A DNA stretch of 64,000 nt from Synechococcus sp. CC9605 (GCF_000012625.1 NC_007516.1:930001-994000), one strand, 5' to 3'; numbered from the stretch's first letter, positions 2,852-32,783 are shown. Program-made: numbers and translations. Notes: generated by a model from the letters alone, not told the origin.

Positions 2852-3145
2852 CTACAGGATTTTGTTGGTGTCGTCACTGTTGAATTTGCAGAAGAGTCTG
2901 CCGAACTCGCTGTAGCCCTCGATGATCAGATCGTTGCTGTCAATGCGGTCCACACGACCATCAACAATCGCGAATTGATTGTGGTATTCGCTTTTTACAG
3001 CGAGCTGATTTTCGCTGTACAGCTCGTGGATGGCGTTGACGTTGTTGACCCAGATTTGAGAGAGAGCAGCATTCCCCAGCAGGCCAAGTCCGGTGGCCAG
3101 GCCAATCCCTAACGAAGTGGACAAACAAATCGGATCACGGTGCAT
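2852..3145 (-). CDS. Small exported protein of unknown function (97 aa)
   Basis: The frame is open further upstream, but the ATG at 3145 gives a good signal peptide (short charged start, then GIGLATGLGLLGNAALS). It also avoids overlap with the preceding gene, which ends at 3178. The remaining ~70 residues form a polar, probably beta-rich domain (NQFAIVDGRVDRIDSNDLII), loosely like OB-fold tRNA_anti-like domains of small envelope proteins; that match is by eye only. It is the last gene of the minus-strand run that contains the oxidase and the GMC protein, and so may act in the periplasm or lumen with them. Function unknown. Confidence 0.55.
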   Translation of the reverse strand: MHRDPICLSTSLGIGLATGLGLLGNAALSQIWVNNVNAIHELYSENQLAVKSEYHNQFAIVDGRVDRIDSNDLIIEGYSEFGRLFCKFNSDDTNKIL

Positions 3146-3177: not shown

Positions 3178-4686
3178 CTAGCCGCAAAGGTGATCGGCCA
3201 GCCGCAGCGCCAACGCAATCACCGTGAGGCCAGGGCCAACGCTCGGGCAACTGGGAAACACGCTGCTGTCGGCGATGTAGAGATTCTCCAATTCATGGCA
3301 TTTGCCCTGAGGGTCCACCACGGAACTGGCGGCGTCTTCACCCATGCGGCAGGTGCCGCAGCCAAAGCCCACCACGCTGAGCGGGGCTTCTCCTCGGGCA
3401 TGGGTGGGAGCCTTCAGCACAACCTTCGTGATCGGGTCGTTTTCCACGTCTTTAAGGGTGTCGATCCAGCGATACACCAGCCGGTCGTGGGCTTCGCGGT
3501 TGTTGGGGATGTAGTTGATCCTGATCTGCTCGTTGTTGAGCCACACCTTGTTGTGGGGATCCGGTCGGACTTCGGTCATGGCCCACCAGGCCACCGAGCG
3601 GGAGGCCAGGCGCTCCAAACCGAAGTCGGGGATGAGCTTGGTCACCAGCGAGAGCACCGGTGGTGACTCGGCAAACAGTGCGTCCTGCAGCACGCCACCG
3701 GCGGCCTGAATGTGGCCCAGTGGAAAACTGACGTTCTTGTCTCCCCAGTAGTAGTCGTTGATTCCCAGTGAACGTCCGTAGCGGCCGCTGTTCCGTTCCG
3801 TGGCCAGCTGCAGGATTGAGGTGAGCTGCAGATTCATCAGGTTCCGGCCCACCTGATCAGACCCGTTGCCGATGCCCTTGGGATGGTGGGCATTGTCCGA
3901 GCGCATCAGGATGGCCGGCGTGTTGATGGCACCGGCAGCAAGGACCACCAAATCGGCACTGAACAGCCAGAAATCGCCGTTCAGTTCCGCTTCCACACCC
4001 CGAATGGCTCGGCCGTTGGGATTCACGTGCAGGCGCAACACCCGTGCGTTGTCACGCACGTTGAGCCGTTTGGGTTCACCCACCTGCAGCCCAAACAGCT
4101 GGGCATCACCGCTGGGATCGTCAGCGTCGTCCGACCAACTGATCGGGATCTCGTAGGGCTGGCAGCCCTGACGCTGAAGGGCGCCACGCAGGGGTTCGAG
4201 AAAGGGTTCGATGGGCTTGGGTGGAGCCAGGAAATCTCCCTTGCGTTTGGGTTCGGTGGGATCAACCCCCGCTTCGCCATGCACCCGATACAGCTGTTCG
4301 GCCTGGTGGTAGTAGGGCTCTAGCTCGGCGTAATCCAGGGGCCATGCCGGTGAGATGCCGTCCTGAAGCGCAACCTCCTCAAAATCTCTTTCGCGCATGC
4401 GTTCCAGCACCGCGCCCCAGATCTTGGTGTTGCCACCTCGGGCGTAGGTGGTTTGCGGGGCAAAGGGATCGCCGTCAGGGCCGAACCAGCGTTCACTCTT
4501 GGGGTGGTAGCGATCCTTGCGGAACAGATCCACGTCGGCGACGTTCTGGTCTTCAAGGGCCATCGCTCCGCCGCGCTCCAGCACCAGCACGGTCTTGCCC
4601 TTGCGGCTCAGGGCTCCCGCCAGGGTTCCCCCTCCGGCACCGCTGCCGATCACGATCACGTCGTAGTGGTTGTCGTCGATGATCAT
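3178..4686 (-). CDS. GMC-family FAD oxidoreductase
   Basis: 502 aa. Residues 8-22 hold the FAD Rossmann motif (VIVIGSGAGGGTLAGAL) followed by VLVLERGG. A GMC signature-like segment (TTYARGGNTKIWGAVLERM) lies near residue 80, and LVVLAAGAINTPAILMRS near 250 is the second GMC signature. The C-terminal domain ends with GTCRMGEDAASSVVD and YIADSSVFPSCP. In many GMC enzymes a His sits three residues before GTCRMG and an Asn or His follows further on; here those places are Phe (GFGCGTCRMG) and Gly/Pro (SVGPGLTV). The usual catalytic pair therefore seems altered. No signal peptide is seen. It starts 5 nt after ctaE and is very probably in the same operon. Substrate unknown; an alcohol, polyol or sugar donor is the family expectation. 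Confidence 0.85.
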   Translation of the reverse strand: MIIDDNHYDVIVIGSGAGGGTLAGALSRKGKTVLVLERGGAMALEDQNVADVDLFRKDRYHPKSERWFGPDGDPFAPQTTYARGGNTKIWGAVLERMRERDFEEVALQDGISPAWPLDYAELEPYYHQAEQLYRVHGEAGVDPTEPKRKGDFLAPPKPIEPFLEPLRGALQRQGCQPYEIPISWSDDADDPSGDAQLFGLQVGEPKRLNVRDNARVLRLHVNPNGRAIRGVEAELNGDFWLFSADLVVLAAGAINTPAILMRSDNAHHPKGIGNGSDQVGRNLMNLQLTSILQLATERNSGRYGRSLGINDYYWGDKNVSFPLGHIQAAGGVLQDALFAESPPVLSLVTKLIPDFGLERLASRSVAWWAMTEVRPDPHNKVWLNNEQIRINYIPNNREAHDRLVYRWIDTLKDVENDPITKVVLKAPTHARGEAPLSVVGFGCGTCRMGEDAASSVVDPQGKCHELENLYIADSSVFPSCPSVGPGLTVIALALRLADHLCG

Positions 4687-4690
4687 GGAA

Positions 4691-5287
4691 TTACTGCCAC
4701 ACGTAGATCAGAAGGAACAGAAGGATCCAGATCACATCAACGAAGTGCCAGAACAGGCTCACCGCAGCAACGCCCATCTCGCCTTTGTCGTAGTTCCCGG
4801 GAACAAACGAACGCGCCAACATCAGGCCCATCAGCAGGATGCCGGTGATCACGTGAAGGCCGTGAAAGCCGGTGAGCAGATAGAACATCCCTCCGAACAC
4901 TCCGCTGCTGAGGCTGAATGTGAGTTCCGACCATTCGATGTATTGGCCGTACACGAAATAGGAGCCCATCGCCATGGTGAGGAACCACACAGCACGGAAG
5001 CCCCAGAGGTTGCCCTTGTGCAGATAGCGCTCAGCGAAATAGGCCACAACGCTGGAGCTCACCAGGACAACGCTGTTGATCAGCGGCATGCGTACCTCCA
5101 GCCCTTCGACGCCGTCCGGTAGCCATTGGGGGGCTGTGAGCTTGAGCACGGCGTAGCCGGCAAAGAAGGCCAGAAAAATGACGCTCTCGGAGCAGAGGAA
5201 GATCACGAAACCGGTCATGTTGTGGCCGTCGTGCTTCACATGGCCGGGGGTGTGATTCAGCTGTAGATCGGGATTGACGCTGGTCAT
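4691..5287 (-). CDS. ctaE: Haem-copper oxidase subunit III (ARTO-type)
   Basis: 198 aa starting at the ATG at 5287; the longer frame would run into ctaD. It has five hydrophobic segments, as expected for the short form of subunit III, with conserved pieces such as GFVIFLCSESVIFLAFFAGY, SSSVVAYFAERYLHKGN, GFHGLHVITG and the C-terminal SLFWHFVDVIWILLF. Subunit III stabilises the catalytic subunit in the membrane. The ctaE start lies 4 nt after the ctaD stop, and the GMC gene follows 5 nt later. Confidence 0.93.
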   Translation of the reverse strand: MTSVNPDLQLNHTPGHVKHDGHNMTGFVIFLCSESVIFLAFFAGYAVLKLTAPQWLPDGVEGLEVRMPLINSVVLVSSSVVAYFAERYLHKGNLWGFRAVWFLTMAMGSYFVYGQYIEWSELTFSLSSGVFGGMFYLLTGFHGLHVITGILLMGLMLARSFVPGNYDKGEMGVAAVSLFWHFVDVIWILLFLLIYVWQ

Positions 5288-5291
5288 TGGC

Positions 5292-6980
5292 TCAGGCCTC
5301 CTGGGAACGTCGCACGTAGAACTCCTCGTCTTCGACGAGGGGGTGGCCCAGGCCATAGCCGTAGGGCTCGCTGATCACGGTGGGGATGTCGTCCTCGAAG
5401 TTTTCAGCCGGTGGCGGCGAGGGCAGCAGCCACTCCAGGCCGATGGCCCGCCAGGGGTTGGGAGGAGCCTGAGGCCCCCGGGCCCAGGAGCTCACCATGT
5501 TGAGAATGAAGGGGATCGAGGCGACGCCGAGCATGAATGCACCGATGCTGGCGATCACATTCCAGATGGCGAACTCAGGGTCATAGGAGGCGACCCGGCG
5601 CGGCATCCCCAGCAACCCAGCCCAGTGCAGGGGCAACCAGTTGAGGGTGGCGCCGATGAAGGTGAGTGCGAAGTGCACCTTGCCTAGGCCCTCGTAATAC
5701 ATGCGGCCGGTGAATTTGGGGAACCAGTGGTAGATCCCGGCGAACACACCGAAGCCGATCGTGTTGAAGATCACGTAGTGGAAGTGGGCCACCACGAAGT
5801 AGGTGTTTCCCACGTGCACGTCGATCGGCACGGTGGCCAGCATCACGCCAGTGATGCCGGCGAAGATGAAGTTGAACAGGCCACCGAGGCAGAACAGCAT
5901 CGGGGTGCTGAGGCGCAGATTGCCTTTCCAAAGGGTTCCCAGCCAGGCGAACACTTTCACGCCAGTGGGAACGGCGATCAGCATCGTGGTGGCCATGAAC
6001 AGATTGCGCATCCACATCGGTGTGCCCGAATAGAACATGTGGTGCACCCACACGATCAGGCTGAGGAAGGTGATGCCGAAGGAGGCGATCGCCACAAAGC
6101 GGTAGCCGAACAGGGGCTTGCGGGCATAAACCGGGAAGAGCTCAGAAAAAATGCCGAACACCGGCAACACCAGCACGTACACGGCGGGGTGCGAATAGAA
6201 CCAGAAGAAGTGCTGAAACAGCACGGGATCACCGCCGCCTTCAGGCCTGAAAAAGCTGGTGCCGAAGCTGAGGTCGAAGAGCAGCATCACAGCACCACCG
6301 GTCAGAGCGGGCAGGCCCACAAGCTGGATGGTCTGAGCGGCCCAGGCGGTCCACACGAAGATCGGCATCTTGAAGAAGCACATGCCAGGGGCCCGCATCC
6401 GGATGATCGTCGTCACGAAATTGACGGCGCCCATGATCGAAGAAATCCCTGAAAGAGCCACCGCCAGAATCCAGAGGAACTGACCGTTGATGAAGTGGTT
6501 CAGGGGGTTCTGCAGGCTCATCGGTGGGTAGGACCACCACCCCGATGACGCCGGACCCCCGGGGGCGAAGAAACTCCCCATCAACACCACCGCGAACAGC
6601 GGCACCAACCAGAAGGCGGCTGCATTCAGCTTGGGAAACGCCATGTCCGGCGCACCTATCATCGTGGGGATCAACAGGTTGTTGAAGCCGTTGAGAATCG
6701 GGAACAGAAACAGGAACAGCATCACTGTTCCATGCATGGTGTAGAGGCCGTTGTAAACACTCGGATCCACCAGATCCGCCGGCGGTGTGATCAGTTCTCC
6801 GCGCACGATCATCGCCAGCAATCCACCCACCAGCAGGAAGAAAAGCGAGGTGGCGATGTACTGAATCCCGATCACCTTGGCATCGGTGTTGAAGCTGAAG
6901 AAGCGCTTCCAGTTGTCCGGGGCACCGGGGACAGGGTGCGGCGCCTTGAGGATGCGTGGGTCGTAGTTGGTGGTGGTCAT
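5292..6980 (-). CDS. ctaD: Haem-copper oxidase subunit I (ARTO-type)
   Basis: 562 aa, the normal length, with about 12 membrane spans. The metal ligands are all present: His in YTMHGTVML (low-spin haem), His and the cross-linked Tyr in YSHPAVYV, the His pair in WVHHMFYSG (CuB), and HFHYVIF for the two haems. The YSHPAVY motif lacks the proton-channel Glu of mitochondrial-like oxidases (GHPEVY), which is typical of type A2 enzymes. It reduces O2 to water. Because its partner CtaC lacks CuA, electrons probably come from quinol rather than cytochrome c. It lies between ctaC (stop 3 nt upstream) and ctaE. Confidence 0.95.
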   Translation of the reverse strand: MTTTNYDPRILKAPHPVPGAPDNWKRFFSFNTDAKVIGIQYIATSLFFLLVGGLLAMIVRGELITPPADLVDPSVYNGLYTMHGTVMLFLFLFPILNGFNNLLIPTMIGAPDMAFPKLNAAAFWLVPLFAVVLMGSFFAPGGPASSGWWSYPPMSLQNPLNHFINGQFLWILAVALSGISSIMGAVNFVTTIIRMRAPGMCFFKMPIFVWTAWAAQTIQLVGLPALTGGAVMLLFDLSFGTSFFRPEGGGDPVLFQHFFWFYSHPAVYVLVLPVFGIFSELFPVYARKPLFGYRFVAIASFGITFLSLIVWVHHMFYSGTPMWMRNLFMATTMLIAVPTGVKVFAWLGTLWKGNLRLSTPMLFCLGGLFNFIFAGITGVMLATVPIDVHVGNTYFVVAHFHYVIFNTIGFGVFAGIYHWFPKFTGRMYYEGLGKVHFALTFIGATLNWLPLHWAGLLGMPRRVASYDPEFAIWNVIASIGAFMLGVASIPFILNMVSSWARGPQAPPNPWRAIGLEWLLPSPPPAENFEDDIPTVISEPYGYGLGHPLVEDEEFYVRRSQEA

Positions 6981-6983
6981 GGC

Positions 6984-7919
6984 TCAGGCGTCGTGCGGGA
7001 TGGAGGGATCTCCGGGGTCGTTCACCATCGGGGCAGGAGCCGGTGGCACCGTGGCCCAGCCTTTGTCACCACGGGCGATGCGACGGTCGTAGAGCACGCG
7101 GCCGGGGTCGAGGCCGGGTTGCAGGGCTTGCTTGGCCGAACGCTTCAGCCAATCGGAGTAGGCCTGCTCCGATTCGACGATCACGTTCGATTGATTCAAC
7201 GACATGTAGGCGCCACTGAACATGGCGTCGCGCAGGCGGAAGCGCCCCTCCCGGGTGGGCGTGAGGCTGTAGGAGATCAGGCTGCCGGGAACGATGTCCT
7301 GCTTCAGCCGAAAGGCCGGCACATAGAAGCTGTGAATCACGTCCTCGGATTGCAGCTGAAGGTTGACCCTTTGATCGATTGGGAGGTGCAGTTCTGAACT
7401 GCGAACGCCATCGGGATATCGGAATTCCCAGCTCCATTGCCGTGCAATCACCTGGATCGGTCCCACCTGCGCCAAGGGATCGGCCGAGAGCAGTGCGCTG
7501 GTGTCGGCACCGATGGCGTACTTCTGCTTCGGCCCCAAGGCGTTCAAGCTGTCATTCACCTTCATCGATGTGAAGGCAATGGCGAACACCAGCAGCAGAG
7601 GGATCACCGTCCAGATGATCTCCAATCTGGTGTTGCCCTCAATTGGTGCCCCGTCGCTTTCGTCGTATTTACCGGCCCGGTTGAACAGCAGCACCCAGCC
7701 CATCACGCCGGTGCAGCCGAAGAAGATAAAGGAGCCGATGCCGGTTTCCAGGGCGAACAGATCGTCGACGTAGGCCGCTGCGCTGGAGGCCTGCGGCGGA
7801 AACCAGCTGTATGACCACGTCGCCATCAGTTTGGCGATGGCGAGATTGATCGCGATCGCGATGCTGATGACCACAATGGAGCCGATGTTGGGGCCTTTCT
7901 TGGGGGCTGTGCTGGTCAT
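6984..7919 (-). CDS. ctaC: Haem-copper oxidase subunit II lacking the CuA site
   Basis: 311 aa from the ATG at 7919, which overlaps the stop of the preceding gene (ATGA). There is an N-terminal membrane anchor (residues 10-32), then two helices (GSFIFFGCTGVMGWVLLF and IIWTVIPLLLVFAIAF), then the cupredoxin domain (WSWEFRYPDG, VIHSFYVPAFRLKQDIVPG). The canonical CuA loop CxExCxxxHxxM should follow, but here it reads DAMFSGAYMSLN. All five ligands in that loop are replaced; only the upstream His (IHSFYVP) remains. Loss of CuA is known in cyanobacterial alternative respiratory terminal oxidases (CtaCII) and in bo-type quinol oxidases, so I read this as an ARTO subunit. Confidence 0.93.
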   Translation of the reverse strand: MTSTAPKKGPNIGSIVVISIAIAINLAIAKLMATWSYSWFPPQASSAAAYVDDLFALETGIGSFIFFGCTGVMGWVLLFNRAGKYDESDGAPIEGNTRLEIIWTVIPLLLVFAIAFTSMKVNDSLNALGPKQKYAIGADTSALLSADPLAQVGPIQVIARQWSWEFRYPDGVRSSELHLPIDQRVNLQLQSEDVIHSFYVPAFRLKQDIVPGSLISYSLTPTREGRFRLRDAMFSGAYMSLNQSNVIVESEQAYSDWLKRSAKQALQPGLDPGRVLYDRRIARGDKGWATVPPAPAPMVNDPGDPSIPHDA

Positions 7920-8536
7920 GGCAATGCCTCCTGCAGATCGGCACCAGCGGCCAGCAACTGGTCTGCGGTGATGTGCACCCCGAAGTCGCTCGCGAGCCAC
8001 GCCCCGAGGCTTCCGTGCAGCCCCATCAACAGCAGCATGCCGATGCCGCAGAGCAGATACAGCCAGCTCACTTGACGGCCCAGGTCCTTGCGCAAGACAA
8101 AGCGTTGGTAACCACGCCAGATGGTCATGGCCACGATCACCAGCAGGATCGCGACGCCACCGATGGCATGCCAGAGCATGGTGTCGATGGCGGTCTGGCC
8201 GAGGATGCTGCGGATGCCTGGCAACGGCACCGCCAGCAGCATTTCGTAGAACCCTGCGGCCACGGTGAAAAAGCTGATGCCGCTGCAGGCGACGAGGTTG
8301 TACCAGCCCACGTCGTGGAAGCCGCTGCGGGTCACCGGCAGAGCCAAGTAGCGGAACACCCGTTTTTCCAGCGGGTAGAACGCACCGGCGACGTCGAAGG
8401 CGATGGCGATCGCAAACAGGCCGATGGTGAGGTGCACCAGGTTGGGGTGCAGCGGAATCGCGTAGGGAAGGTTGTTGGCGCCGAGGGAGTCGGCGATGTC
8501 GTTGATCGGCGATGCGATCGCGGCGAAGTGGATCAC
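7916..8536 (-). CDS. DUF2231 membrane protein B of the oxidase operon
   Basis: 206 aa if started at the GTG at 8536, which overlaps the stop of the gene before it (GTGA). The stop at 7916 likewise overlaps the ctaC ATG, so all three are translationally coupled. It has four to five hydrophobic segments. Conserved-looking His residues occur as LHPNLVH at the start of the first helix, LWHAIGG in a middle helix and GLHGSLG in the last. This is the DUF2231 pattern and mirrors its neighbour. Spaced His pairs in a membrane bundle could ligate haem b, which would give the CuA-less oxidase an electron donor. That role is inferred only. Confidence 0.8.
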   Translation of the reverse strand: MIHFAAIASPINDIADSLGANNLPYAIPLHPNLVHLTIGLFAIAIAFDVAGAFYPLEKRVFRYLALPVTRSGFHDVGWYNLVACSGISFFTVAAGFYEMLLAVPLPGIRSILGQTAIDTMLWHAIGGVAILLVIVAMTIWRGYQRFVLRKDLGRQVSWLYLLCGIGMLLLMGLHGSLGAWLASDFGVHITADQLLAAGADLQEALP

Positions 8537-9033
8537 GACACCACCCCCTGACGGATGGCTTCCACCACGGGGACCGTGTGCAGCCCGTAAACCCACACCA
8601 GCTTGTCGCCGAGGTACACCTGCGTGATCACAAGCCCCGCCAGCACCACATCAAGGGCCAGAAAGCCCCTGGGCAAGTTCGCCGGATCTTTCTGCCGGGC
8701 GACGTAGCGCCAGCCCGTGAGCAGGGCCAGCACGCCGGCCAGGGACCAACCGATGGTGCTGTGAATGTTGAGGATGTCCCGCGAGGCGCCATAGGGATTG
8801 GCAAGACCGGCCTCCACCTGGCCGAAGATGATCGCCACAAAGATCGCCACGGTGGCGACGATCAGGTTCCAAAAGCTGACTTCAAACAGATTCTTCTTGC
8901 CACTGATCACACCGATGACGTCGAACACCACCGTGATCAGGGCCATGGCGATCACGAAGTGAACGACGATCGGATGGATGACGTCGAGCCAGGGCAGATT
9001 TTTGTCGTTGAGCGGTGGAAGCAGCTCAAGCAT
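8533..9033 (-). CDS. DUF2231 membrane protein A of the oxidase operon
   Basis: 166 aa from the ATG at 9033 (a GTG at 9051 is the alternative). DUF2231-type integral membrane protein with four hydrophobic segments. His residues occur as VIHPIVVHF (about residues 20 and 25), NIHSTIGWS in the third segment and GLHTVPVV near the end, in the same arrangement as the next gene. The two proteins are paralogous in layout and may form a heterodimer. First gene of the probable operon DUF2231-DUF2231-ctaC-ctaD-ctaE-GMC. Function unknown. Confidence 0.8.
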   Translation of the reverse strand: MLELLPPLNDKNLPWLDVIHPIVVHFVIAMALITVVFDVIGVISGKKNLFEVSFWNLIVATVAIFVAIIFGQVEAGLANPYGASRDILNIHSTIGWSLAGVLALLTGWRYVARQKDPANLPRGFLALDVVLAGLVITQVYLGDKLVWVYGLHTVPVVEAIRQGVVS

Positions 9034-9144
9034 CGGCAAGCCGATCGACACCCACCAAGGATGACCACGCTGGATCAGACGGTCATCACCAGATGTGCAA
9101 TTGCAACTCCATTCGTCTCATCACGGGTTGCACTAGAGATGCCG

Positions 9145-10230
9145 CTAGGTCTTGGTGCGCCAGAACACCAACGCCTGGGTCATGATCACGATCAACACCA
9201 CCGGCAGTACAAAACAGAGCATCAAAAGCCTGAACTCGTCCGACCAACTGGCGAGGGTTGTTCGGGGAAGGACGTTGTCAACGATGTAGAGGATGTACAA
9301 GCCCAGCAACAGTCCACCTTCGAGTCGGCTGATCCGTCCGCGCGTCCAGAAGATCGGCATGCAGGCCAGGCTGGTGAGCAACATCACAGGTAGGTCGTCC
9401 TGAATCAATTCGGGGCTGACCTCCAGGCCACGACCAGCGGCAGCCAAGGCTCCACCACCCAGCACCAGCAGCAGGTTCAACAGGCAGCTGCCCACCACGT
9501 TGCCAATGGCCAGATCGGTGCGCCCGCGCAGGGCTGCCACCAGGGAGGTGATCAATTCCGGCATTGAGGTTCCGGCGGAAACGATCGTCAGACCGATCAC
9601 CGCCTCACTCACCCCGAGGTAGGTGGCTGCTGCTGTGGCGCCGCTCACCAGCACCCGGGATCCGATGGTGAGGATTCCAATCCCTCCGATCAGCCGCAGG
9701 ATGGCAAGGGTCCAGCCGCCGCTCGCCGCGTCCTCTTCGATCTCGGGTTCAGCGCTGCCGCTGTCGTCTGGTTGTTCGCGGGCGGTGCGGATCTCCCAGA
9801 TGGTGTTGATCACAAGCCCCAACAGCAAGGCCAGGCCCGCCTGCCAGGTGACCCGTCCTGCGGAGGCCATGCCCCAGACCGCCGCCGAGATGGCAATCAT
9901 CAGAGGAACATCGCGCCGCACCAGACGGCTTTCGACGCGCAACGGCAGCACAAGGGCGCTGCTGCCCAGCACCACCATCACGTTGAAGATGTTGCTGCCC
10001 ACCACATTGCTCACGGCGAGGGTGTCAGCCCCCTGCAGCACTGAGTTCAGACTCACGAACAGTTCCGGGGCGCTGGTGCCCAGGGAAACCACCGTGAGGC
10101 CGATCACGAGCTGGGGGATGCCAAAGATCACCGCCATGGCGACGGACCCCTGAACAAACAATTCTCCGCCACCGAACAGCAGCCCGATGCCCAGCAGCAC
10201 TTGGATCGAGGCCTGGAGGAATTCAGGCAT
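9145..10230 (-). CDS. Sodium/calcium exchanger family membrane protein
   Basis: 361 aa with two homologous halves of about five helices each, separated by an acidic cytoplasmic loop (EQPDDSGSAEPEIEED, about residues 155-170). Each half holds the alpha-repeat signature of the CaCA superfamily: GLTVVSLGTSAPELFVSL with NVVGSNIFN in the first, and GLTIVSAGTSMPELITSL with NVVGSCLLN in the second. The acidic residues of the PEL motifs bind cations. Family members exchange Na+ (or H+, K+) for Ca2+. It is divergent from bicA, a Na+-dependent bicarbonate symporter, so maintaining the Na+ gradient is a reasonable role, inferred from position. Confidence 0.9.
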   Translation of the reverse strand: MPEFLQASIQVLLGIGLLFGGGELFVQGSVAMAVIFGIPQLVIGLTVVSLGTSAPELFVSLNSVLQGADTLAVSNVVGSNIFNVMVVLGSSALVLPLRVESRLVRRDVPLMIAISAAVWGMASAGRVTWQAGLALLLGLVINTIWEIRTAREQPDDSGSAEPEIEEDAASGGWTLAILRLIGGIGILTIGSRVLVSGATAAATYLGVSEAVIGLTIVSAGTSMPELITSLVAALRGRTDLAIGNVVGSCLLNLLLVLGGGALAAAGRGLEVSPELIQDDLPVMLLTSLACMPIFWTRGRISRLEGGLLLGLYILYIVDNVLPRTTLASWSDEFRLLMLCFVLPVVLIVIMTQALVFWRTKT

Positions 10231-15423: not shown

Positions 15424-15693
15424 ATGGCACGTTTCGTCTTGTGGGGCACTTACTGCACGGATGCTCTTGTGAAGCGTGCTCCTTATCGTGATGAACATCT
15501 TGCTCGCCTTCAGGGCTTGAAAGATCAGGGAACGCTGGTCACGCTCGGACCCACTGAGGGAAGCACCCATGTTTTCGGGATCTTCGAGGCCGACAGCCTC
15601 TACGTCGTTCGCATGCTGGTTGAGGACGACGTTTATTGGAAGCAGGGAATCTGGACGGCGCTCGAGGTTTATCCCTGGGTCCAGGCGTTCTGA
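15424..15693 (+). CDS. YciI-family protein
   Basis: 89 aa from ATG 15424; the track-length frame begins further upstream without support. The ferredoxin-like fold of the family is suggested by RFVLWGTYCTDALVKRAPYRDEHLARL and by LVTLGPTEGSTHVFGIFEAD, with the buried His and Asp positions (YRDEHL) seen in YciI proteins. The 3' end overlaps the convergent cytochrome gene by 25 nt. Family members are small dimeric enzymes of mostly unknown reaction. Confidence 0.85.
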   Translation: MARFVLWGTYCTDALVKRAPYRDEHLARLQGLKDQGTLVTLGPTEGSTHVFGIFEADSLYVVRMLVEDDVYWKQGIWTALEVYPWVQAF

Positions 15694-16025
15694 GCCTGCA
15701 TGAGCACCCATTCCGCCACAAGCTGATCTCCCTCGCTCCCGAGAACGTCGGCGTAACCACTCATCTGGCCTCGGCCTTCCCGGGCGATGGCTGCGATGGC
15801 GTCCACCGTTGCGATCTGCTCACGCTCGAGGGTCTTCAGCTTCAGGTTTTTCCCTCGGCGAATGATGTTGCCGCCGTTGATGTGGCATCCGGCGCAGTGC
15901 TGTTCGAACAACAGAGCGCCGGTGCTGGCATCCCGCCCGGCGGCCAGCGAAGCACCGCCTGATCCAAGGCTCAGCAGCAGCACAAGAAACGCACCAATGC
16001 AGCAGCGAAGGATGGAGCTCAGCAC
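15669..16025 (-). CDS. Cytochrome c6-like exported c-type cytochrome
   Basis: 118 aa with a signal peptide (GAFLVLLLSLGSGGASLAAG, cut after about residue 29). The haem motif CAGCH is near residue 44, followed by INGGNIIRRGKNLKL. An axial Met probably lies in GQMSGYADVLG. The mature part is about 88 residues, the size of cytochrome c6. It should act in the thylakoid lumen or periplasm as a one-electron carrier. It differs clearly from the second cytochrome in the window (32406-32783) and looks like a c6 variant rather than photosynthetic petJ. Upstream lie a 77-aa unknown protein and, divergently, a Nif11-cupin gene. Confidence 0.88.
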   Translation of the reverse strand: MLSSILRCCIGAFLVLLLSLGSGGASLAAGRDASTGALLFEQHCAGCHINGGNIIRRGKNLKLKTLEREQIATVDAIAAIAREGRGQMSGYADVLGSEGDQLVAEWVLMQAQNAWTQG

Positions 16026-32409: not shown

Positions 32410-32783
32410 CGCCTCGACCAGCCCAATTCGGCCCGTTGTTCAACGTAGGTGGCCACCGCCATGATCTCCTCATCACTCAGTGTGTCGGCATAGCTGGGCA
32501 TGGCATTCAGCCCATCCTCGATCTCGTGCTCCAAGGCCTCCAGCGGGGAACTGGAATAGGCCTCCACATGGGCGTTCAAGTCGCTGATCTTTAGCGTTCG
32601 GTTGGCGCGGATTACATTGCCGCCCCCCATGTGACAGGCCGCACAGTTGCTGTTGAAAATCTGCTCACCTCGCTCCAAGGCGGAGCTTTTGAGAGCGTCA
32701 ATTGCCATCGCTGGAGCAGACAGCAGACATGTCGCGCCAACGATCAACAGCATTGTCAGCATCAGGCCTGATACGCGTGCCAT
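32406..32783 (-). CDS. Cytochrome c6-type protein
   Basis: 125 aa from ATG 32783, with signal peptide (LMLTMLLIVGATCLLSAPAMA). The haem motif CAACH lies near residue 47 (NSNCAACHMGGGNVI), the axial Met is in NAMPSYADTLSDEE, and the C-terminal helix is EIMAVATYVEQRAELGW. This is closer to classical c6 than the cytochrome at 15669, and could carry electrons from b6f to PSI or to an oxidase. It starts the operon with the Nif11 gene and lies near petE, which does the same job with copper. petJ is possible, but a c6B-type variant cannot be excluded. Confidence 0.88.
   Translation of the reverse strand: MARVSGLMLTMLLIVGATCLLSAPAMAIDALKSSALERGEQIFNSNCAACHMGGGNVIRANRTLKISDLNAHVEAYSSSPLEALEHEIEDGLNAMPSYADTLSDEEIMAVATYVEQRAELGWSRR

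Follow-up and report, generated by a model that had tools for sequence, protein, structure and literature searches.

How does a haem-copper oxidase without a CuA centre receive its electrons, and why is it encoded together with two membrane proteins of the DUF2231 family and a GMC-fold flavoprotein? This question is raised by a minus-strand cluster of six genes at positions 3178-9033 of a 64,000-nucleotide stretch of Synechococcus sp. CC9605 DNA (GCF_000012625.1 NC_007516.1:930001-994000; the whole stretch is called the window hereafter, and gene coordinates refer to it). The oxidase is an alternative respiratory terminal oxidase (ARTO). The six genes almost certainly constitute a conserved functional unit, and we tentatively propose that they represent the full form of the cyanobacterial ARTO locus, in which the DUF2231 pair would act as an electron-entry module supplied by a flavoprotein. 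From upstream to downstream, the genes are as follows.

8533..9033, minus strand: D1, a DUF2231 membrane protein of 166 amino acids (aa) with four transmembrane segments (Pfam PF09990, E 7e-37)
7916..8536, minus strand: D2, a second DUF2231 membrane protein of 206 aa with a GTG start at 8536 (PF09990, E 2e-37)
6984..7919, minus strand: ctaC2, oxidase subunit II (Pfam COX2_TM/COX2) with the CuA ligands replaced
5292..6980, minus strand: ctaD2, A2-type oxidase subunit I (Pfam COX1) with the YSHPAVY motif
4691..5287, minus strand: ctaE2, oxidase subunit III, CtaE/CyoC-like (COX3, PF00510, E 1e-33)
3178..4686, minus strand: a GMC-fold FAD protein of 502 aa (GMC_oxred_N/C)

D1 overlaps D2 by GTGA and D2 overlaps ctaC2 by ATGA, and the successive gaps from ctaC2 through ctaD2 and ctaE2 to the GMC gene are 3, 4 and 4 nt; the D1 reading frame has an alternative GTG start at 9051. 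A first-pass annotation had described six minus-strand genes that overlap or lie at most 5 nt apart and had taken them to be most likely one operon. Its coordinates and gene order are correct, and the reading as one operon-like unit is supported. The host genome (2.51 Mb, related to marine Synechococcus) encodes a second CtaC and CtaD of the canonical CuA type near 588 kb, and contains no DUF2231 protein other than D1 and D2.

The association extends far beyond this strain. Searches for CtaC, GMC and D1 were carried out across 390 genomes of the class, 80 ARTO regions were fetched from diverse cyanobacterial families, and 80 more loci were taken from a scan of named genomes (loci, families and genera are numbered with L, f and g, respectively). 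Neither the order nor the orientation of D1, D2 and CtaC varies among the 80 loci of the first set, and CtaD and CtaE come after CtaC wherever the contig permits. A GMC orthologue adjoins the oxidase genes in 68 of these 80 loci, at a median distance of 29 nt from ctaE and within 100 nt in 51 of the 68. The remaining 12 comprise L059, which has a more distant GMC in the same place, five loci whose GMC orthologue lies elsewhere in the genome, three heterocystous-like loci with no GMC orthologue nearby, and three that are cut or broken. All six genes are present in 70 of the 80 loci of the second set, and truncated contigs or disrupted frames account for most of the remainder. The complete sets include those of Prochlorococcus MIT 9107 and MIT 9201. 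Marine Synechococcus WH7803 (L107) also has the cluster. The DUF2231 and GMC proteins, earlier suggested to be partners of the oxidase, are thus real partners that share its neighbourhood in other cyanobacterial genomes. In family f1, to which the window belongs, CtaC2, D1 and the GMC orthologue occur together in 28 of 64 genomes and all three are missing in the other 36, except that G325 gives a weak D1 match (E 2.5e-13); these genomes are mutually related, and hence the pattern carries no probability. Genera g1, g2, g5 and g10 each mix presence and absence of the three markers, and the genes have therefore been gained or lost together several times. Taken with the same order across families, this congruence places the linkage far beyond chance.

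It is conceivable that the cluster encodes an ordinary ARTO quinol oxidase and that its neighbours are bystanders retained through operon inertia. The separation of the GMC gene from the oxidase in L034, L035, L042, L049 and L053 is in keeping with such inertia, but the orthologue has been retained in each of these genomes. Moreover, the order is kept over the class, presence and absence are congruent, and all six genes persist in streamlined Prochlorococcus genomes, so that bystander status is very improbable.

Which electron port does the oxidase possess? The CuA region reads VCAELCGPYHGGM in the CtaC1 of the same genome and RDAMFSGAYMSLN in CtaC2. The ligands Cys, Cys, His and Met of CtaC1 correspond to Asp, Ser, Met and Asn in CtaC2, and His 196, which is conserved, is the only CuA-ligand position that CtaC2 has kept. 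None of 80 CtaC2 orthologues contains a CxxxC motif. With the CuA centre missing from subunit II, the enzyme is not a CuA-type cytochrome c oxidase; a CtaC without CuA ligands and an intact haem-copper subunit I within a ctaC-D-E cluster identify it as ARTO, in agreement with the ARTO-like character assigned at first reading. The A2-type motif YSHPAVY is found in 76 of 78 CtaD2 matches, and the other two lack the motif region.

These 76 CtaD2 sequences were aligned with E. coli CyoB. E. coli cytochrome bo3 (CyoABCD) likewise has a subunit II without CuA, and it has the haem and CuB ligands in common with CtaD2: all haem and CuB His residues, the Tyr, the N-D-N residues of the D-channel and the Lys of the K-channel are kept in all 76. 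In contrast to bo3, the stretch YSHPAVY replaces Glu 286, whose position is Ala in every sequence, as in the A2 type. The roles of R71, D75, H98 and Q101 in the quinol site are established for E. coli bo3, and none of the four is kept in any of the 76 sequences. CtaD2 has Val/Ile/Phe in place of R71, Leu/Phe/Glu in place of D75, Val/Leu/Ile/Phe in place of H98 and Gly/Ala/Ser/Val in place of Q101. Therefore, the description of ARTO as bo3-like, i.e. as a bo3-type quinol oxidase (PMC6616624), fails at its defining site. Judged from these residues, CtaC2-D2-E2 is a haem-copper oxidase that has an intact O2-reducing site and intact proton channels and has neither known electron port, that is, neither CuA for cytochrome c nor the bo3 quinol site. 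Its electrons probably come from quinol rather than from cytochrome c, and quinol may serve ARTO as the donor via another site.

Much of the oxidase itself has been described before. ARTO is known as CtaCII-DII-EII and, in Anabaena PCC 7120, as Cox3/Qox, encoded by the operon alr2729-alr2730-coxB3-A3-C3, in which two unnamed membrane proteins lie upstream of the CuA-less oxidase (PMC6616624). Anabaena co-regulates alr2729 and alr2730 with cox3 (PMC7065334), as is partly seen in PMC4390870. The two small upstream proteins match the D1-D2-C-D-E order of Nostocales loci, and it follows from this gene order, rather than from their own sequences, that alr2729/alr2730 are the DUF2231 pair. The Anabaena operon thus shares the CuA-less oxidase and the pair with the window, whereas the window unit adds the GMC-fold flavoprotein as a sixth gene. 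Already known, therefore, are ARTO, its CuA-less nature, its connection with iron reduction and the Anabaena operon. No report tying DUF2231 or GMC to ARTO was found in the literature searched, most subscription journals being outside the search. DUF2231 itself is mentioned by a single paper in that literature.

D1 and D2 are tied to ARTO in both order and presence. They score 127 and 129 bits against the DUF2231 profile (Pfam cut-off, 26.4). His 20, 25, 91 and 152 of D1 are invariant in 54 of 54 sequences, and D2 has invariant His 30, 35, 123 and 188 and a mostly kept His 174 (D2 residues are numbered from the GTG at 8536). The AlphaFold model of D1 consists of four long helices in a bundle (pLDDT 82.5). 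The loops on one side of D1 average 2.0 and 3.5 Lys/Arg residues as opposed to 0.3, 0.5 and 1.3 on the other, and from this distribution of positive charge both proteins are predicted to have their N- and C-termini outside, which would direct all eight invariant His residues towards the periplasmic side. His 25 and His 91 of D1 each lie nine residues into helix 1 and helix 3, respectively, and this equal depth in the model would suit a haem held between diagonal helices. Four invariant His residues in each protein and a helix bundle are compatible with a role as a haem-binding cytochrome b.

The sixth gene encodes a protein with the GMC fold (PF05199, 69 bits; PF00732, 28 bits) and an intact FAD motif, in which GxGxxG and Glu 37 are conserved. 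Its closest solved relatives are fructose dehydrogenase (FDH), which is the best fold match, and FAD-glucose dehydrogenase. H1147 and N1190 of FDH align with positions 441 and 484, the spacing being 43 residues in both proteins, and in the window the catalytic His and Asn give way to F441 and G484. Among 69 aligned GMC sequences, position 484 is Gly in 33, Ser in 33 and Pro in 3, and never Asn; position 441 is Tyr in 24, Asn in 18, His in 15 and Phe in 6, among others; and position 443 is Cys in 63. The catalytic pair of GMC alcohol and sugar dehydrogenases (His with Asn or His) is thus missing from the window protein. Canonical GMC paralogues of the same loci carry HQAGT and NPxLT as well as a Cys motif that ends in CDGFPC, whereas this Cys motif is missing in all 68 ARTO-linked orthologues. 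The ARTO-adjacent GMCs of L059, Trichormus variabilis and Nostoc edaphicum have kept the Cys motif, their His and Asn being already gone. In the tree, the ARTO GMC group forms one side of a single branch. Together with the residue losses, this grouping indicates that linkage to ARTO and loss of the classical active site occur together, the FAD motifs staying conserved. Nearly all orthologues begin with MIIDD and no export signal was seen, and the protein is therefore probably cytoplasmic. Although it shares its fold and its best sequence and structure matches with the large subunits of fructose and FAD-glucose dehydrogenases, it differs from them in having no catalytic His/Asn, Cys cluster, export signal or adjoining small-subunit gene.

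These features bear on the path proposed at first, in which the flavoprotein takes electrons from an organic alcohol or sugar and these pass via the DUF2231 proteins to O2. Several loci do hint at a link with sugars. An MGH1-like/GH63 glycosidase gene followed by a canonical GMC paralogue stands beside the ARTO unit in same-family relatives (L020, L022, L024-L026, L029 and L031-L033), a divergent MGH1-like gene in L194 and two genes for GH15 enzymes in L193; related GMC genes of Paraburkholderia (L090) and of Streptomyces (L091, there beside cydAB) likewise have GH15 nearby. Such neighbours in several lineages, and the nearest fold, speak for an organic donor. However, no glycosidase gene was seen beside the operon of the window, the Cys cluster is lost, and the catalytic Asn is replaced in every aligned sequence and the His in most. 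Given the loss of these residues, it is improbable that the protein draws its electrons from a simple alcohol or sugar by the usual mechanism. The first description, which named a flavoprotein usually acting on alcohols or sugars, holds for the fold and the FAD motif, but a classical dehydrogenase is no longer the simplest reading of its residues, and the organic-donor path as a whole is quite unlikely.

The flavoprotein is exchangeable. An NDH-2-like protein replaces GMC in L194, L195, L196, L088, L198, L200 and L201 and stands together with GMC in L063. The combination of the DUF2231 pair, ARTO and an NDH-2-like flavoprotein is found in L194, L195, L196, L063 and a plasmid of Fischerella NIES-4106, where the gene is annotated ndbC. 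In other cyanobacteria, NDH-2 (type 2 NADH dehydrogenase, NdbC) thus occupies the same genomic slot beside the genes for DUF2231 proteins and the oxidase, although it belongs to another flavoprotein family than GMC. In L198, L200 and L201 (families f11 and f40), the DUF2231 pair lies inside a cbb3-type operon (CcoN, CcoO) and is followed by the NDH-2-like gene. The eight His residues are also invariant in these cbb3-linked copies, whose D2 has about 100 additional aa at the C-terminal end. A cbb3-type pair whose function is described as unclear has also been reported in S. elongatus PCC 7942 (PMC13208690). The earlier suggestion that a flavoprotein belongs to the path therefore stands in that the unit does have a linked flavoprotein, although which one varies and several heterocystous loci have neither kind.

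The linkage of DUF2231 to ARTO and cbb3 genes alike, both with CuB, also raises the possibility that D1 and D2 assist assembly, for instance by delivering metal or haem to the CuB/haem site as chaperones, and that the GMC flavoprotein takes part in maturation or regulation. Their His clusters could hold copper. However, the genome has two haem-copper oxidases and a single DUF2231 pair, at ARTO, and because this pair is the only one, the CuB site of CtaD1 must be built without DUF2231. The recurrent association with an NDH-2-like or GMC flavoprotein also fits electron transfer better, and an assembly role is unlikely.

We return to the DUF2231 pair as an electron-entry module. An oxidase without CuA and without the bo3 site needs a port, and because two His-rich membrane proteins constantly accompany this one, these are candidates for the port. 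A precedent is the SoxABCD oxidase of Sulfolobus, a CuA-less enzyme whose operon also encodes a distinct cytochrome b subunit for the oxidation of quinol; the difference is that SoxC is a cytochrome b homologue, whereas DUF2231 is another, four-helix family. In the proposed route, electrons would pass from the flavoprotein (GMC-derived or NDH-2-like), via quinone or directly, to the DUF2231 pair and on to haem a of CtaD2. The pair would take them from plastoquinol or straight from the flavoprotein, and the His cluster on its periplasmic side would probably hold a haem or another metal that relays them. The GMC-fold FAD protein, like its NDH-2-like substitute, would work on the cytoplasmic face and supply reducing equivalents. 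That GMC donates electrons to the unit is a possibility a little short of an even one, and that DUF2231 is the entry site is held slightly more tentatively still.

Several observations weigh against this route. No flavoprotein gene was found near ARTO in the heterocystous loci L082, L085 and L203, and a dedicated neighbouring donor is therefore not obligatory. A quinol site elsewhere in CtaC2 or CtaD2 may take the place of the pair. The D1 sequence has no match among solved structures and D2 has weak matches only, and the matches of the D1 model in Foldseek and VIA-align, to generic four-helix bundles and COX3, are within the chance range for helical models. To our knowledge, a cofactor has been demonstrated for no DUF2231 protein. 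Finally, a plasmid of Gloeothece PCC 7822 (L089, 7986-9097) carries a D1-D2 pair without adjoining oxidase genes. The neighbours of this orphan pair encode a cupin-like protein, a four-helix copper-binding protein, a GH15 protein and a Rieske protein. A plasmid search for DUF2231 beyond cyanobacteria returned cyanobacterial records only.

ARTO has also been linked to iron reduction, and the unit may chiefly reduce Fe(III) in the periplasm for the purpose of iron uptake and reduce O2 only as a secondary activity. Synechocystis ctaD2/E2 mutants are impaired in iron reduction and uptake, and ARTO is enriched in low-iron Prochlorococcus (PMC10119275, PMC7676907). The ctaC2D2E2 region of Prochlorococcus MIT 9201 is depicted in PMC10119275; the same strain is our L147, and its low-iron cluster therefore also holds the DUF2231 and GMC genes. 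The predicted periplasmic orientation of the D1/D2 His cluster would agree with a reductase. However, the residues of the O2-reducing site and proton channels are fully conserved, and the heterocyst homologue has been reviewed as respiratory (PMC6616624), and iron reduction as the chief function is improbable.

Other genes stand close to the unit. In the window, a Na/Ca exchanger gene (9145-10230, same strand) lies 111 nt upstream of D1; at this distance, and being kept upstream within the first set of loci by genera g1 and g5 only, it was rejected as a member. A 96-aa open frame on the same strand directly after GMC (2852-3142) has no Pfam match. Two cytochrome c6-like frames at 15681-15932 and 32418-32732, with 36-37% identity to a Nostoc PetJ, are possible electron carriers. 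On plasmid A of T. variabilis ATCC 29413 (L087) and a plasmid of N. edaphicum (L205), the six-gene ARTO unit is followed by cydA-cydB and preceded by genes for a BlaI-type regulator and an M56 protease. This pair presumably resembles the copper-responsive PetR/PetP pair. It was rejected as a general ARTO regulator, being found only next to the unit on these two plasmids and, at a greater distance, in L196.

The electron donor of ARTO is a standing question in cyanobacterial respiration. ARTO bears on iron reduction, on the survival of Prochlorococcus in the low-iron ocean and on nitrogen fixation in heterocysts. A wider reading, possible but rather unlikely, is that the DUF2231 pair is a small, His-rich membrane complex and a hitherto unrecognised respiratory entry module. 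It would allow A2-type ARTO and cbb3 oxidases alike to work without CuA, the bo3 site or the customary supply from cytochrome c, and would be coupled to flavoproteins that can be exchanged (GMC-derived or NDH-2-like). With three conserved, deletable partner genes named, the donor question becomes directly testable, and the association with ARTO provides a first functional context for DUF2231.

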